35,541 nucleotides of DNA, from positions 1 through 35,541 of IMG/VR virus record IMGVR_UViG_3300031280_000008. The stretch is one strand, 5' to 3'. A program made the translations under genes and the position numbers. Of the stretch, positions 8,824-25,936 are shown in pieces. The DNA comes from a virus. The notes beneath the pieces were generated by a model that was not told the DNA's origin, ran no database searches, and was given only the letters and a program-made list of their open reading frames with translations. Position 1 is the stretch's first letter. Every line of letters begins with the position of its first letter.

Positions 8824-9146
8824 GAACATTACTTTTAGCAATTGCAATTATAATGATCGCTGGATGTCAGATGCCTCAGCGAGAACAGGGGACGCCGTCC
8901 AAGATGCCTGACGGTAAGTGGGTTAGCTTTAGTTGGTTTAGTAGCGACGGCGGTGGGATGAGAAATCATCTGGGCCGATTCGCTGTTGGAGCTATGACCC
9001 GCAGCCAAGAATTGAATAGCAAACAATTCATGCACGAACGATATTTGAACAAGATCCGTATACCAGCATTGACTGGAAAAGAATGGCAAGATAACTTCAA
9101 AGCCCAACGATATTGGATTGGCAAATATGGAGCACTGCCCAAATGA
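8820..9146 (+). CDS. Small phage lipoprotein
   Basis: 108 residues. The N-terminus is a classic lipoprotein signal: two-residue start, basic Arg2, hydrophobic core LLLAIAIIMI and lipobox IAGC, with the acylated Cys at residue 16. The mature part is hydrophilic (DGKWVSFSWFSSDGGGMRN, then helical). It is expected in the inner or outer membrane of a Gram-negative host. Possible roles are spanin-like lysis factor or superinfection exclusion; neither is shown. ATGA overlap at the start; the stop overlaps the ATG of the helicase gene. Confidence 0.75.
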   Translation: MRTLLLAIAIIMIAGCQMPQREQGTPSKMPDGKWVSFSWFSSDGGGMRNHLGRFAVGAMTRSQELNSKQFMHERYLNKIRIPALTGKEWQDNFKAQRYWIGKYGALPK

Positions 9147-11521
9147 AAACAAAACCGTTCGATCATCAAGCAAAAGAGCTGAAAGAACATGGTCACGATT
9201 TAGTGAGAGCGATCCACTGGGAGCAGGGCTGTTTTGACGCCGATACCGAATACCTAAGTCCGAGGGGATGGCGAAAAATATCTAAATATCTTGGTGGTAA
9301 AGTAGCTCAGTGGAATCAGCAAACCGGCAAAGCAGAATTTGTTACGCCCTTAGAGTATGTAGTTAAGGACTGTGACTCGATGATCCGGATCAAGACGAAA
9401 TATGGTGTCGATCAAAAAGTGAGCTTCAATCATCGCATACCATACTTAACGAAGCACGGAAAGAAACCAAAAGAAGCGTCGGCAATATCAATATATAAAA
9501 ACTTACAAAAATCAAAGTCTGCGTTTCGCAATCTGCCCTCGATATTCACCTTAACACCAACCGGCCCAGGGCTCTCACTCACAGATCGCGAATTGCGACT
9601 ACAGATCGCCGTAATGGCGGACGGTCACTTTCCAAAAGATTCTCAGGGAACAAATAGATGCGTGGTTAGGTTAAAGAAACAGCGGAAAGTTATACGACTC
9701 AGGTCTATGTTGGTAGGTAGAGACTTCAACGAAGTAGTTAAAAATGGTGGATTCCATGTCTTTACATTTTACGCCCCACTGCGAATCAAGCATTATCCTG
9801 TGGGGTGGTTATCTAATATAGATCGACGCCAACGGGACATAGTGTGTCACGAGCTATTTTTCTGGGACGGAAGTGGTGGTAATAAATTCTACTCCAAGCA
9901 AGAGTCAGATGCTGATGTGGTTCAAACCATGCTGGCGTCCATGGGTAAGGTAGTGCGGAAAACATTCGAGAACGGTGTGTGGAAGGTATATGTGCGAAAG
10001 AATACAACATCGTTTACTGTTCGGGGTGATAACATGGAAGTGGAGATGACACTGGACGGTAAGATGTATTGTTTCTGTGTACCTACTAAATTCTTAGTGA
10101 TGCGGCGTAATGGTTGTATCTTTCCGTCAGGCAATACAGGTAAGTCATGGTTGGGGATGGCTACGGCTGAGGAGCTGTGGAAAGCTAAACAAATCGACGC
10201 TCTTTTCATTACCGCACCACCTGGGCTTCACACCAACTGGACAAAATACGAGATCCCTGATCACCTGAGTGTTCCTCATGCGATGATTGCTTTCCAGTCG
10301 AAGAAGGCAAAGACCCAGAAACACATGCGGGCGTGTCACGAGGTTATGAATGCTGGTTCAGGACACCTACCAATTATTGCGATGTCTTACCCAGGAATCA
10401 AGACGGCTGCTGGTAAGAAGTTGGCAAAAGAGTTTCTCACAAAACATCGCTGCTTATATTTAGCTGATGAATCGAATCGGTTCAAAACACCATCTGCCAA
10501 GATCACGCGGACGATATTGGCGTCAAGCAATCACGCAGATTATAAACGCACACTTTGTGGTACGCCGATCACCAACACACCGTTTGACGTGTACACACAA
10601 TTCCGATTTCTAAATAAACGGTTCTGGTCAGACTCACCTTATGGCCTTGGTAGTTTCCAGTGCTTCAAAACATTCTTTGGTATCTGGAAAAAAGGTTACA
10701 ACGGAGCACAGGATCGCGAATATGATTTATGTGTTGGCTACAAGAATTTAGAGATACTCACTGAGCTGGTACGATCAATAGCATCCCGCGTATTAAAAGA
10801 AGACGTGTTGGATATTCCAGCGAAGCTCTACTCATACGCTGGCTTTGAGATGACTCCGAAGCAATGGAAGATCTACAAAGAGATCGAAGAAGAATTCTTC
10901 ACATGCCTTGACGGTGAGATGATCTTTACTCCGCTTGTAATTACACGTCTTCTTAGATTGCAGCAGGTAGCAAATGGTTATCTTCCGACCGGCGACGAAA
11001 ATGAATGTGTTATGATCGAGGATAAGAACCCCAGGCTTGCAGCATTGGGTGAGATCACCCAGGATCTGCCACACAAAGCAATCATCTGGGCTCGGTTCAT
11101 TAAAGACATTGATCAGATTTGTGAGATGCTTGGTGACAAAGCTGTGCGATGGGATGGGTCGGTTGATGAAGACAGACGCGAGGAGAATAAGTGGGCTTTC
11201 AAGAAAGAGCCTGTGGATAAAATTCAATTCATGGTCGCGACACCTGAGAGTATGGGTGAGGGACATACACTGAATGAAGCGAAGACGACGATCTATTATT
11301 CAAACAGTTACAAAATGAAAGAACGACATCAGTCAGAAGACAGAAATCATAGAGCAGGACAGGAAGATCACGTACATTATATTGATTTAGTTGCCGATAA
11401 TACCAAAGATATTGACATCATCAACGCACTTCGAGTGAAATTTGATAATGCCTCGATGGTAATTGATGGAAAAATTAGAAAATGGTTGTTGACATACAAT
11501 ACAGTAAATGATATACTGTAG
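9143..11521 (+). CDS. SNF2-family DNA helicase interrupted by an intein
   Basis: 792 residues as encoded. Residues 1-29 and 332-792 form a 490-residue SF2/SNF2-type helicase; residues 30-331 are an intein inserted in motif I. Once joined, Walker A reads WEQG-TGKS. Motif II is LADES (Asp442), motif III is TLCGTPITN, motif V is FMVATPESMGEGHTLN and motif VI is QSEDRNHRAGQ (from residue 730). Phage SNF2-type helicases usually sit in replication modules and act in fork remodelling or recombination. ATG 9143 overlaps the previous TGA; an earlier in-frame TTG (9113) has no ribosome binding site. A promoter for the next gene overlaps its last codons. Confidence 0.9.
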   Translation: MKTKPFDHQAKELKEHGHDLVRAIHWEQGCFDADTEYLSPRGWRKISKYLGGKVAQWNQQTGKAEFVTPLEYVVKDCDSMIRIKTKYGVDQKVSFNHRIPYLTKHGKKPKEASAISIYKNLQKSKSAFRNLPSIFTLTPTGPGLSLTDRELRLQIAVMADGHFPKDSQGTNRCVVRLKKQRKVIRLRSMLVGRDFNEVVKNGGFHVFTFYAPLRIKHYPVGWLSNIDRRQRDIVCHELFFWDGSGGNKFYSKQESDADVVQTMLASMGKVVRKTFENGVWKVYVRKNTTSFTVRGDNMEVEMTLDGKMYCFCVPTKFLVMRRNGCIFPSGNTGKSWLGMATAEELWKAKQIDALFITAPPGLHTNWTKYEIPDHLSVPHAMIAFQSKKAKTQKHMRACHEVMNAGSGHLPIIAMSYPGIKTAAGKKLAKEFLTKHRCLYLADESNRFKTPSAKITRTILASSNHADYKRTLCGTPITNTPFDVYTQFRFLNKRFWSDSPYGLGSFQCFKTFFGIWKKGYNGAQDREYDLCVGYKNLEILTELVRSIASRVLKEDVLDIPAKLYSYAGFEMTPKQWKIYKEIEEEFFTCLDGEMIFTPLVITRLLRLQQVANGYLPTGDENECVMIEDKNPRLAALGEITQDLPHKAIIWARFIKDIDQICEMLGDKAVRWDGSVDEDRREENKWAFKKEPVDKIQFMVATPESMGEGHTLNEAKTTIYYSNSYKMKERHQSEDRNHRAGQEDHVHYIDLVADNTKDIDIINALRVKFDNASMVIDGKIRKWLLTYNTVNDIL
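9230..10135 (+). mobile_element. Intein with LAGLIDADG-type endonuclease domain
   Basis: 302 residues in frame. Starts with Cys1 in block A, CFDADTEYLSPRGW; block B is VSFNHRIPYL; the C-terminal block reads FLVMRRNGCIFPSGN, ending in Asn with Thr as the +1 residue. The central domain has two LAGLIDADG-like helices, LQIAVMADGHF and LFFWDGS. The penultimate residue is Gly rather than the usual His, which is known in some active inteins. The insertion point between Gly and Thr of the P-loop is a classic intein site because it blocks allele loss. Boundaries are set by the helicase P-loop on both sides. Confidence 0.9.
11489..11517 (+). promoter_or_regulatory. Sigma70-type promoter in the end of the helicase gene
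   Basis: TTGACA at 11489-11494, 17-bp spacer, TATACT at 11512-11517. It overlaps the last codons of the helicase gene. Predicted start near 11524 gives a leader of about 38 nt before ATG 11562. It would allow expression of the 11562-13001 genes independent of upstream transcription. Confidence 0.8.
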
Positions 11522-13359: not shown

Positions 13360-14525
13360 AACTATCACACCAACAACAGCAGGCAGTAGATGCCATTGGC
13401 CGATGGATGAGTACGGATCAACAAGTCTTCCGACTCTTTGGCTACGCGGGCACCGGCAAAACAACGCTTGCGAAATATGCAGCCTCTGGAGCAACTTTGT
13501 TCTGTGCATTTACCGGCAAAGCTGCATACGTATTACGCCAAAAAGGATGTGAGGCATTTACTATTCATCAATTAATCTACTGTCCAAAAGAACGAAGCAA
13601 GATGAAGCTGAAAGAATTAGAGAGTGAAATCAAAAACACTACTGACGAAGATGAGATCGAAAGACTACAGAAGCTAATTGATTTTGAACACAAAAAACTT
13701 AATTCTCCAAGCTTTGTACTAAATCCGGACAGTCCTGTGAAAACGGCTGATTGTATTGTAGTTGATGAATGCTCAATGGTGGATGAGCAGATGGCTTACG
13801 ATCTTATGAGCTTTGGCACAAAGATTCTTGTCCTGGGCGATCCGGCCCAACTGCCACCAGTTATGGGTAATGGGTTCTTCATTAAAGCCGAGCCCGACTT
13901 CATGTTGACTGAGATCCACCGACAAGCCAAAGGCAATCCAATCATCGACCTTGCTACAAGAATAAGACAGCGTGAATTTCTTCAACCTGACGGCGATATG
14001 ATTGTCCCGTGGGGAAGCGTAAAGCCTGATGAGGTATTGGGATATGATCAAATCCTTGTAGGTAAGAATAGAACACGCAAAGGAACGAACCGAAAGATCC
14101 GCGAGCTATTAGAGCGAGGTAGTGATATTCCGATAGAAGGTGACAGGCTTGTTTGTCTGCGGAATGATCACGAAGTGGGTTTGCTTAACGGTGGGATCTG
14201 GGAAGTCGAATCATGCTACGACACTGGCGAAGAGTTTCTTGATATGATAATCAAAGACCCAGAGACCGACTCTGGGTTTATAGCCGTCGAGGCTCACCGA
14301 CATTATTTTGAAGACACAGACGACAAACCCATTCCTTGGTGGATTAGGAAAGAAGCTCAAGAGTTTGATTACGGCTACGCACTGACCGTACATAAATCTC
14401 AAGGTTCCGAGTGGGATAAAGTATTGATCTTCGATGAAAGTGGTGTCTTCGGTAGAGATGCCCATAAGTGGCTTTACACTGCAATTACAAGAGCACAAAA
14501 GGAAGTGACACTGGTGGTACGATGA
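13356..14525 (+). CDS. RecD/Dda-like SF1 DNA helicase
   Basis: 389 residues from ATG 13356. All SF1B motifs are visible: Walker A GYAGTGKTT (residues 29-37, Lys35), motif II VVDECSMVDE (Asp137-Glu138), motif III LVLGDPAQLPPV, motif IV EIHRQ, motif V LTVHKSQGSEWD and motif VI YTAITRAQKE. Length is close to T4 Dda (about 440 residues) and far shorter than full RecD, so it is a Dda-type 5'-3' helicase for replication start or fork restart. An earlier TTG at 13335 lies within the upstream gene. It is coupled by ATGA overlaps on both sides. Confidence 0.9.
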   Translation: MKLSHQQQQAVDAIGRWMSTDQQVFRLFGYAGTGKTTLAKYAASGATLFCAFTGKAAYVLRQKGCEAFTIHQLIYCPKERSKMKLKELESEIKNTTDEDEIERLQKLIDFEHKKLNSPSFVLNPDSPVKTADCIVVDECSMVDEQMAYDLMSFGTKILVLGDPAQLPPVMGNGFFIKAEPDFMLTEIHRQAKGNPIIDLATRIRQREFLQPDGDMIVPWGSVKPDEVLGYDQILVGKNRTRKGTNRKIRELLERGSDIPIEGDRLVCLRNDHEVGLLNGGIWEVESCYDTGEEFLDMIIKDPETDSGFIAVEAHRHYFEDTDDKPIPWWIRKEAQEFDYGYALTVHKSQGSEWDKVLIFDESGVFGRDAHKWLYTAITRAQKEVTLVVR

Positions 14526-14962
14526 AAAAGATCTGTACAGGATGTAAAAAGAAATTAGATCTTGCCGAATTTCTGCCCGATAAACGAGCAAAGGATGGAA
14601 AGCAAAGTAAATGTAGAAAGTGCATCAATAATTTTATTAAGATGCACTATCGAGATCATCCTGTTCAAGGATTATTACGTCGAGCCTACGCCAGGGCGAA
14701 ACACAAGGCTTTGGCTTTCGATATAACATCTGAGGATATAACACCATTACCAGACCGCTGTCCTGTGCTTGGAATCGTCCTGGAACATGCAAATGGACAG
14801 CAAAATCCAAACGCCTATTCTCTGGACAGAATTGATTCATCAAAAGGATATATCAAAGATAATGTTGCTGTCATAAGCTATTTGGCTAATAGGCTAAAGA
14901 ATGATGGAACAGCAGAACAACATGAGCGTATTGCTGCTTGGATGAGGTCAATGACACAATGA
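14522..14962 (+). CDS. HNH-type endonuclease with N-terminal zinc finger
   Basis: 146 residues. The N-terminus holds a four-Cys zinc finger: CTGCKKKLDLAEF followed by SKCRKCINNF. The C-terminal half matches a phage HNH/endonuclease VII-like family: DRCPVLGIVLEH, then SLDRIDSSKGYIKDNVAVIS and ANRLKNDGT. It may be a free-standing homing endonuclease or a resolvase-type nuclease acting in replication or packaging. It sits between helicase and polymerase genes, a frequent location for invading HNH genes. Coupled by ATGA overlaps at both ends. Confidence 0.75.
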   Translation: MKKICTGCKKKLDLAEFLPDKRAKDGKQSKCRKCINNFIKMHYRDHPVQGLLRRAYARAKHKALAFDITSEDITPLPDRCPVLGIVLEHANGQQNPNAYSLDRIDSSKGYIKDNVAVISYLANRLKNDGTAEQHERIAAWMRSMTQ

Positions 14963-20893: not shown

Positions 20894-21341
20894 AGTGACA
20901 TTCAAGTCAGGGCAATTCATCACTGCGTATTCATCTGATCCAGATTCATTCGCTCGATCAGTGACTGACATATCACCACCTGAAATTACCAACATTGAAT
21001 ATGAGTTTGTCGAGCAAGATCTTCCAGAATTGCAGGAAGTGACATTAACTCTTCAAAGTGGAGCATTGCTTTTATGTGAGATTCCCACAACAGAGGTTGT
21101 AAAGATTCCCTGCATTAAAGAAGTTTCAGATTTTGCAGAGACCACAACAATCGCTTATGCTCGAATGGCTACCAAAGAAAATTTACTTGATGAACGATTT
21201 AAGGCTGCAACTGTTGTTATCAACAACCTACCAGTTTTATCGGTTCGCTTACATTTACACAAAGAATATTTGAAACGTAAAGCTGCATACGTAGCAGCAC
21301 TTGAAGCATTAGTTGATAGTGTTATTAGGCGTCCAGAATGA
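20880..21341 (+). CDS. Unknown phage protein
   Basis: 153 residues. The N-terminal part is beta-rich (PIKVTFKSGQFITAYSS), with a VTLTLQSGALLLCEIP strand pair. The C-terminal 60 residues are helical and basic (HKEYLKRKAAYVAALEALVD). The start codon lies in the tail of the previous gene and the stop overlaps the HNH gene ATG. No family recognised. Confidence 0.65.
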   Translation: MVPIKVTFKSGQFITAYSSDPDSFARSVTDISPPEITNIEYEFVEQDLPELQEVTLTLQSGALLLCEIPTTEVVKIPCIKEVSDFAETTTIAYARMATKENLLDERFKAATVVINNLPVLSVRLHLHKEYLKRKAAYVAALEALVDSVIRRPE

Positions 21342-21703
21342 AGCAAATTCCAAATCATCCTAATTACGAAATCACAACTGACGGAAGAATTTGGTCTAAG
21401 AAAAACCACAGGTGGTTGCAACTAACACTTACTGATTGTGGCCACTACAAAGTGCGTTTAGGGAGTAAACAACTATATTATGTTCATCGCCTTGTTCTTG
21501 AAACTTTTATAGGGCCATGTCCAGAAAATATGGAAGGGTGCCACAAGAATGATATTGGCACAGACAACAAGTTGAACAATTTAAGGTGGGGCACTCGATC
21601 TACCAATAGAAAAGATGCAGTATTATACAGTATAAGTAGGGCTACCGTAGCCGCTATTGTAAATAAAAATATTTGGAAACATTTATGGAGAACAAAATTA
21701 TGA
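21338..21703 (+). CDS. NUMOD4-HNH homing endonuclease
   Basis: 121 residues. NUMOD4 motif at the N-terminus: IPNHPNYEITTDGRIWSKK. HNH domain: YYVHRLVLETFIGPCPEN, then EGCHKNDIGTDNKLNNLRWG and TRSTNRKDA, with His/Asn/His-type positions visible. Length is typical of free-standing phage HNH endonucleases with a short DNA-binding tail (SRATVAAIVNKNIW). ATGA overlap upstream and downstream. Such genes move by cutting unoccupied alleles, so this boundary may mark an insertion. Confidence 0.85.
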   Translation: MKQIPNHPNYEITTDGRIWSKKNHRWLQLTLTDCGHYKVRLGSKQLYYVHRLVLETFIGPCPENMEGCHKNDIGTDNKLNNLRWGTRSTNRKDAVLYSISRATVAAIVNKNIWKHLWRTKL

Positions 21704-23238: not shown

Positions 23239-23268
23239 TTTGCACAAAGTGGGTTCATGTGTTATACT
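23239..23268 (+). promoter_or_regulatory. Phage promoter family, copy a
   Basis: TTTGCA at 23239-23244 and TATACT at 23263-23268, 18-bp spacer, extended -10 (TGTTATACT), followed by ATAAGTAGCGAGG. It belongs to the seven-copy family described for 28201, 29856, 30783, 31772, 32229 and 35347. Unlike the others it has a leader of about 260 nt before the next gene. Confidence 0.8.
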
Positions 23269-23337: not shown

Positions 23338-23520
23338 TGTAGATCACAAGATCGAACAACGAGGCGTCAACTAAAATCTGTCCACGCCTACAAGGCCGAA
23401 TGGCTGGAGAATAAAAGGGGCAGTCAAAACTATGGCTCTGGTGTTAGCTGTTAAACATGGACGACCGTGAGACCGGACAATCACGGAAGTCCGTAAAACA
23501 CCATGCTTTTATAGTAGATC
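23329..23520 (+). repeat. 17-nt imperfect direct repeat bounding the leader segment
   Basis: TGCTTTTATTGTAGATC at 23329-23345 and TGCTTTTATAGTAGATC at 23504-23520 differ at one base. They enclose 158 nt carrying the predicted stems. The second copy runs into TTTTTGGAG, the ribosome binding site of the next gene. The layout suggests a segment inserted or duplicated between promoter and gene. Confidence 0.6.
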
Positions 23521-23534
23521 TTTTTGGAGATGAG

Positions 23535-23738
23535 ATGAGAACATTATTTTTATTATTATGCGTTCATGCTTTAACTGATTTTCAGTTGCAGAACGGAGCA
23601 ATGTGGAAGTGCAAGATGCGAAGCGGCAGTCGTCGCTGGTATCATTGGCTGACTGCCCATGCTCTGATCTGCGGCGGCGGAGTATACTTAGTGACACAGT
23701 CGCTCACTGTTGCTGTTTGTGAAGTAGTGTGTCACTGA
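23535..23738 (+). CDS. DUF3307-family membrane protein, stopped early by in-frame UGA
   Basis: 67 residues to the first stop. ATG 23535 lies 5 nt after GGAG (23526-23529); an earlier ATG at 23457 has no ribosome binding site and lies in the structured leader. FLLLCVHALTDFQLQ and WLTAHALICGGGVYLVT match DUF3307, a small membrane protein family of bacteria and phages. The family continues past this point with a conserved H-x-L/I-I-D segment; here the frame reads ...VVCH, UGA, then LIDFGK. Trp (UGG) often fills the position now occupied by UGA. Function of the family is unknown. Confidence 0.7.
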   Translation: MRTLFLLLCVHALTDFQLQNGAMWKCKMRSGSRRWYHWLTAHALICGGGVYLVTQSLTVAVCEVVCH

Positions 23739-23852
23739 CTAATTGATTTTGGGAAGGGTGAAGATTGGATTAATTCTGAAACTGATCAAGCCTTTCATAT
23801 TGTTTGTCGAATCGTATATGTTATTATTTTGTGGGGAGCTTATTATGTGTAA
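23739..23852 (+). pseudogene. Continuation of DUF3307 gene after the in-frame UGA
   Basis: The same frame stays open for 37 more codons (LIDFGKGEDWINSETDQAFH, then IVCRIVYVIILWGAYYV) and ends in TAA at 23850-23852. LID completes the conserved HxLID motif and DQAFHIVCR fits the family's last TM region. The TAA overlaps the next ATG (ATGTGTAA), the normal dense junction of this genome. So the gene recently had, or still uses by read-through, a full length of 105 residues. The stop context is UGA CUA. Confidence 0.65.
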
Positions 23853-24057
23853 TGAATGTCACTGTAATGATGATCGTGAAGCCGAACAGGATTTAACTGA
23901 GGCAGAAGCAAAAGGTCAATTCCATAAAGTGACAATCCGCGTCACTATGGAAGCCACTGTGGATATGCCTGGATCTGATCACGACACGGAAGACCTGCCT
24001 AACTTCCTGGACGAAGTCCAGATGAACGGCGAAATTGTTGATTGGGAAGAGGTGTAG
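23845..24057 (+). CDS. Small acidic Cys-containing protein, unknown
   Basis: 70 residues from ATG 23845, which follows GTGGGGAG; an earlier in-frame ATG (23743) would overlap the DUF3307 frame and encode its TM region out of frame. The N-terminus MCNECHCNDD has three clustered Cys. The middle is beta-like (HKVTIRVTMEATVDM) and the end acidic. Stop is followed by GTATG of the next gene. Confidence 0.65.
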   Translation: MCNECHCNDDREAEQDLTEAEAKGQFHKVTIRVTMEATVDMPGSDHDTEDLPNFLDEVQMNGEIVDWEEV

Positions 24058-24505: not shown

Positions 24506-24741
24506 TAGCTTTATTTATCTGGTACGAACGCGAATTGGTTGGAGTGGCGTTAGCTCCGATCATTAACATCATCGTCTGTATTCTGTTTATACTCGCGGTG
24601 TTCATTGTTCTTGTGTGTGAAATTGCTTTGATCGTCATCGCTCCGATTGCGTACTCCCTGGGTATTGATAGTGGTGAATGGCACAGCAACATCCTCAAAA
24701 AATCAATGACGATATTTGGAAGCAAGAAAAATGAAAGCTGA
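24478..24741 (+). CDS. Small protein with two transmembrane helices
   Basis: 87 residues from ATG 24478 after GAGGAGAG. Two long hydrophobic stretches: LLLCIVIALFIWY and IINIIVCILFILAVFIVLVC continuing into EIALIVIAPIAYSLGI, so two to three TM helices. Ends with a short basic tail (KKSMTIFGSKKNES). It could be a holin or inner-membrane effector; no family recognised. It overlaps the RtcB gene by 11 nt. Confidence 0.65.
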   Translation: MSKLLLCIVIALFIWYERELVGVALAPIINIIVCILFILAVFIVLVCEIALIVIAPIAYSLGIDSGEWHSNILKKSMTIFGSKKNES

Positions 24742-25936
24742 ATTAGGTAAACGTAGTCAGTTGAATGACATCCGGCGAACGCCGGCAAAACTGTGGGTTG
24801 ATCCTGCGGCACTGGATAGCAAGTGTCACGACCAGCTCAAAATCTTGATGCGGTTGCCATTTGCGGTTCAGCACATCGCAGTCTTTCCTGATGCAAGCTG
24901 CGGTTATGGTATGCCGATTGGCTGTATACTTGCAACCGACAACGTCGTAATCCCGAACGCAGTCGGCGTTGATATTGGTTGTGGTATGATCGCTGTTCGA
25001 TTGCATGGATTGCCTGACGTAGATAAGGTTCGCGATGTGTTACAGAATCTTAGGGAATTAATCAAACAGGCTGTACCTGTTGGCCACAACTGGCACGACA
25101 ATATGTGTGGACATGAAGACATGCCGGCTGAGATGCAGTCATGTCTAATAGTTGGTAAGCAATACGACCGAGCACGGCGACAACTCGGAACACTTGGCGG
25201 TGGCAATCACTTCATCGAGATCCAGGTTGACGAACATGGTGGCATCTGGGTGATGATTCATAGCGGTTCCAGGAATCTCGGCAAGCAGGTCTGTGACTAC
25301 TATTCCAAGTGGGCTCTCGAAGATAACGCCCAACATTATTCGCAGGTGCCCAGGAGTGCTGATCTTGGGTTCTTCCGCCGCGACCATGATGGGTTTGGTC
25401 AATACATCCAGGAGATGGCATATTGTGTTGCCTTTGCCAAGCAGAACAGAGCAAAAATGATGTGGGCTACATTGAAGGCGTTCCAGACGATTTGGCCGAA
25501 TACAATGGTTTCTGGCGAGCGATGGTATGATATATGTCACAACCACATGAGTATTGAAAATCACTTTGGCCGCAATGTGTGTGTACATCGCAAAGGTGCT
25601 GCTGGGCCATATCGAAAAGGAGTCTTTGGCATTATACCAGGGTCTATGGGCTCAAAGTCATACATCGTCTCACATACTGGTGAAAAGCTTTCCTATTTAT
25701 CTACGTCGCATGGTGCTGGCCGAAGGATGTCACGCAAGAAAGCTAAGGAAAATCTGGATCTACAAGATCAACAGATGATGTTGGACGAGTTAGGAGTAGT
25801 TCACGGCCTAAATGGTCGAGGCAATTTGGACGAAGCTCCATCAGCATATAAAAATATTGATAAAGTTATGGCAGATCAAGCTGATCTCTGTAACATTGAA
25901 GTCGTGTTGACACCGATACTTTCTATTAAGGGGTAG
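24731..25936 (+). CDS. rtcB: RNA-splicing ligase RtcB
   Basis: 401 residues, close to the usual 390-480. Conserved blocks: GVDIGCGM with metal-binding Cys84, GTLGGGNHFIE, IHSGSRNLG, PGSMGSKSYIV and STSHGAGRRMSRKKA with the guanylylated His327, ending YKNIDKVM. RtcB joins RNA 2',3'-cyclic phosphate or 3'-phosphate ends to 5'-OH ends using GTP and Mn. In phages it is thought to repair tRNAs cut by host anticodon nucleases. An archease partner is not seen. ATG 24731 has only a weak ribosome binding site, suggesting coupling to the membrane gene. Confidence 0.95.
   Translation: MKAELGKRSQLNDIRRTPAKLWVDPAALDSKCHDQLKILMRLPFAVQHIAVFPDASCGYGMPIGCILATDNVVIPNAVGVDIGCGMIAVRLHGLPDVDKVRDVLQNLRELIKQAVPVGHNWHDNMCGHEDMPAEMQSCLIVGKQYDRARRQLGTLGGGNHFIEIQVDEHGGIWVMIHSGSRNLGKQVCDYYSKWALEDNAQHYSQVPRSADLGFFRRDHDGFGQYIQEMAYCVAFAKQNRAKMMWATLKAFQTIWPNTMVSGERWYDICHNHMSIENHFGRNVCVHRKGAAGPYRKGVFGIIPGSMGSKSYIVSHTGEKLSYLSTSHGAGRRMSRKKAKENLDLQDQQMMLDELGVVHGLNGRGNLDEAPSAYKNIDKVMADQADLCNIEVVLTPILSIKG

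Follow-up and report, generated by a model that had tools for sequence, protein, structure and literature searches.

The window analysed here is an entire virus record of 35,541 bases, probably an incomplete genome, and it carries no host genome. A frame for a DUF3307 membrane protein lies between a leader with a structured RNA and a conserved small gene (Table 1), and by direct reading it runs MRTLFLL...EVVCH*LIDFGKG...AYYV*. The inner stop is a TGA placed directly 3' of the codon for the family's invariant His (His67), giving H-UGA-L-I-D. Past this codon the frame stays open, as the preliminary description had noted, to a TAA overlapping the start, an ATG, of the following gene (ATGTGTAA), which has its own ribosome-binding site, GGGGAG. 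The DUF3307 start matches that of the closest homolog, at the IMG/VR locus L017, exactly. Promoters similar to the one assigned to the leader and DUF3307 unit recur elsewhere in the window and in related phages.

Table 1. Features of the interrupted DUF3307 locus and of the RNA arrays at the corresponding loci (L numbers) of related phages
Feature	Position	Strand	Basis or remark
Probable promoter of the leader and DUF3307 unit, TTTGCAC ... TATACT	23240..23268	+	Sequence, repeats
Structured non-coding RNA of the leader, conserved	23340..23425	+	Common to L005, L101 and L103; member of RNA array
Ribosome-binding site of the DUF3307 gene, GGAG	23526..23529	+	Sequence
DUF3307 N-terminal 67 codons, helices 1-3 plus the greater part of helix 4	23535..23735	+	PF11750 33.3 bits alone; start codon aligned to L017
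In-frame TGA right after invariant His67	23736..23738	+	Direct reading; sense codon in all examined homologs
DUF3307 C-terminal 37 codons, with D71, K74, D84, Q85 and H88, and TAA (23850-23852)	23739..23852	+	Read-through 45.6 bits; family-normal conservation
Next gene (MCNEC...)	23845..24057	+	Conserved in L005 and L006, which are without DUF3307
Conserved structured RNA in related phages	L005:16068-16158; L101:21138-21290; L103:19938-20026		Member of RNA array
Interrupted tRNA genes in related phages	L005:15884-16054; L005:16278-16419; L103:19771-19929; L101:20990-21128		ARAGORN intron mode

The interruption falls within a genuine member of the DUF3307 family (PF11750), as had been proposed: against a Pfam gathering cut-off of 23 bits, the part before the TGA already scores above threshold, well beyond chance, and the read-through frame scores higher still (Table 1). 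The read-through frame of 105 codons resembles the phage and prophage membrane proteins of PF11750 in its score, its length and its possession of all universally invariant His, Asp, Gln and Lys residues, but differs from them in being broken by a UGA and having no intact open frame. Across 83 distinct homologs ten residues never vary (H11, D15, Q19, K27, H42, H67, D71, D84, Q85, and H88), and the window gene keeps all ten, four of them (D71, D84, Q85, and H88) past the TGA. The preliminary description placed the stop inside an HxLID motif; the break does come directly after the invariant His, but the motif of the family is HxxID/HxxTD. Its statement that Trp is common at the interrupted position was likewise partly borne out: Trp occupies the position in 20% of the 83 homologs, but the position is variable and Ala is commoner (31%), with Phe at 19% and Thr at 8%.

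A high-confidence structural model of the read-through protein (pLDDT 93.1, pTM 0.85) contains five predicted helices, at residues 2-19, 21-26, 35-54, 57-75, and 81-104. In the model the TGA cuts helix 4, and helix 5 is lost. Comparison of the modelled fold with solved structures gave no significant match, and a literature search for DUF3307 returned one passing mention. The family is without an assigned function, and the conserved H11, D15, H42, H67, D71, D84, and H88 are useful targets for its study.

Among annotated phages, no homolog of the DUF3307 gene exceeds 41% identity. A scan of IMG/VR with an 11-sequence alignment returned 80 loci, the best of which, L017, is 57% identical; the scan pattern covered only the N-terminal motif of DUF3307 and so did not select against stops further downstream. 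No stop was found inside the DUF3307 domain in any of approximately 90 phage and IMG/VR homologs. A scan of bacterial genomes with a single prophage protein as query returned 16 homologs. In the comparison with related phages that had been suggested, the stop was absent, and L017 has TTC (Phe) at the UGA position. The L017 contig also encodes a polymerase that shares 73% identity with the polymerase of the window, indicating that it comes from a related phage. Closer phage relatives are represented by L005 and L006, whose primase is approximately 80% identical to that of the window, and both are without a DUF3307 ortholog at the corresponding place. For this reason we infer that DUF3307 is a cargo gene lying between the leader with its RNA and the small conserved gene that starts at 23845. 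In L005, L101, and L103 the leader RNA is present and DUF3307 does not adjoin it.

An open frame of 37 codons past the TGA is itself weak evidence of coding, being found in ~4.5% of shuffles, whereas the conserved residues retained there are strong evidence. The difference in mean identity, C-terminal minus N-terminal part, is -0.059 for the window gene; the mean for the family is -0.071 (sd 0.039). Decay of the tail has therefore not yet set in. Such conservation is compatible with a mutation of recent date, with an error, or with a tail still in use, and argues against an old pseudogene. Because the tail keeps both its invariant residues and normal conservation, the gene appears to have been full length until recently.

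We consider it probable that the TGA is a recent, real nonsense mutation in the DUF3307 cargo gene, with at most incidental leakage. A one-base mutation was among the options first offered, and it agrees with the absence of the stop from every homolog examined and of any other interruption from the window; 152 gene-by-locus comparisons between window genes and related phage loci likewise gave no in-frame stop. A functional membrane-protein gene would have acquired the substitution at the variable position after His67. Most ribosomes would then stop at the UGA and release a 67-residue fragment ending within predicted helix 4, which is probably non-functional because five family-invariant or nearly invariant residues are missing from it. 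Misreading of the weak UGA-C by tRNA-Trp may yield a little full-length protein in a host-dependent amount, which would be incidental and not programmed. A survey of bacterial genes found in-frame stops to be widespread, mostly short-lived, and over-represented in genes of mobile elements (PMC7918605), a pattern that the present case fits. Like the nonsense alleles of Belinky et al. 2021 (PMC7918605), it has one stop within a gene that is otherwise under constraint, and it differs in that a single allele is known here. Against a recent mutation, a read-through that is in use would lead one equally to expect normal conservation past the stop, UGA-C is reported to be weak in bacteria (PMC5289835), and neither a closer copy of the gene nor a second copy of the phage showing a stop-free allele was found. 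As it stands the finding matters little: one stop has disrupted a cargo gene.

A consensus or assembly error, or a minor allele in a metagenomic contig whose gene is intact in most genomes, would produce the same picture, and we regard this as unlikely. A single base would suffice, the remainder of the gene is intact, and the single virus record offers no second copy for comparison. The TGA is not within a homopolymer, however, and no other in-frame stop occurs in the true gene frames of the window, which speaks for a consensus that is good overall. Many apparent matches to other interrupted genes, in the window or in relatives, were shadow frames of real genes.

Programmed read-through of the UGA, yielding a 67-residue short form and a minor full-length form as in the Q-beta coat and A1 proteins, is in our estimate a slim prospect. 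The frame is open and conserved up to the TAA overlapping the next start, the invariant residues past the stop are all kept, and UGA with a C after it is reported to terminate inefficiently in bacteria (PMC5289835). This agrees in part with the proposal that UGA-CUA is a read-through context; the UGA-CUAG motif, however, is mammalian (PMC9841425), and although the window gene also has UGA CUA, its next base gives CUAA in place of CUAG and the system is bacterial. The weak context is moreover shared with four other window genes that terminate in TGAC. Family-normal constraint on the tail is also predicted by a recent mutation.

Regulated read-through of the kind seen in Q-beta A1 found no support. 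None of the ~90 homologs has a stop at this position. There is no stimulatory RNA structure 3' of the TGA, where the RNA folds worse than shuffled sequences (z +1.43; matched or bettered by 188 of 200 shuffles). No tRNA gene was found in the contig, probably an incomplete genome, whether or not introns were allowed. In Q-beta, a UGA with an open frame behind it likewise continues the same protein, and the main coat protein is the short form, with misreading at ~1/15 (PMC8067240), but the short form encoded in the window is without D71, D84, Q85, and H88 and its stop is not conserved. Read-through of UGA is host-specific: it amounts to ~12% in E. coli but stays below 0.1% in Pseudomonas, at 0.08% for P. 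putida and 0.04% for P. aeruginosa (PMC9481147). Judged by primase, the cultured phages nearest to the window have Pseudomonas as their host genus. Since UGA-C terminates weakly, a degree of incidental leakage is likely, in an amount that depends on the host. That a leaky UGA-C serves to ration the DUF3307 protein, keeping the 67-residue fragment high and the full protein low and host-dependent, strikes us as slimmer still. If read-through were true, it would be an unusual case, in a DNA phage, of a membrane protein dosed according to the UGA fidelity of the host.

We also observed an 11-pair inverted repeat, TTAGTGACACA / TGTGTCACTGA, at ~23688-23738, with its right arm ending in the TGA; it was not seen in L017. 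The whole DUF3307 gene folds better than shuffles (z -2.45), to which this stem contributes. As a read-through signal the stem was given no weight, because the ribosome opens a stem that lies 5' of the stop.

It is very improbable that the 67-residue form is itself the selected product, as an inhibitor or small membrane peptide, with the tail a dying remnant: the start has a good ribosome-binding site and the N-terminal part is predicted to retain its helices, but the tail is without decay, and truncation would fall within a helix and part the invariant H67 from its ID partner. Decoding of UGA as Trp by the phage or its host has next to no likelihood, since the one in-frame UGA at a position with Trp in a fifth of homologs is set against 28 of 50 window genes that terminate in TGA, many overlapping the next start, and against the lack of any further internal TGA in a true gene frame; a UGA-recoded genome is ruled out by this stop usage, in agreement with the original judgement that a changed code was unlikely.

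At this locus, related phages have a series of structured RNAs arranged as an array, among them tRNA genes whose anticodon loop contains an insertion of 65-92 nt. ARAGORN in intron mode identified interrupted Ser-CGA, Thr-CGT, Ser-TGA, and Pro-TGG tRNAs in L005, L103, and L101, and the two in L005 score 38.6 and 28.8 bits with the Rfam tRNA model. At this length the insertions fall short of ordinary group I introns. The array member also present in the window is a structured RNA of ~75-85 nt with the core GACCGAACAACGAGGCGTCAACTAAAGACTGTCCACGCCTACAA and a likely pseudoknot of CTGTCC with GGGGCAG; it had no Rfam match. In L101, L103, and L005, RNA units of the array are followed by a short GCTTTTAYTGTAGGTC-like repeat, which may be a processing or spacer element and is present in the window at ~23333 and ~23505. 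The window keeps these two copies though ARAGORN detects no tRNA there. As far as we can see, the array and the conserved RNA element are unconnected with the DUF3307 stop codon. The interrupted tRNA genes of the related phages are more interesting than the stop and deserve a study of their own.

Several other window genes were noted from reading of their proteins. A putative RtcB-like RNA ligase gene at 24716-25936 is absent from the corresponding place in L005, and could possibly be linked to RNA repair or to the interrupted tRNAs. A putative helicase gene at 9113-11521 appears to carry an intein (CFDADTEYLSPRGW... block), and putative HNH-endonuclease-like genes lie at 14468-14962 and 21338-21703. 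Neither L005 nor L006 has a match to the HNH-like gene at 21338, which suggests a recent homing insertion.
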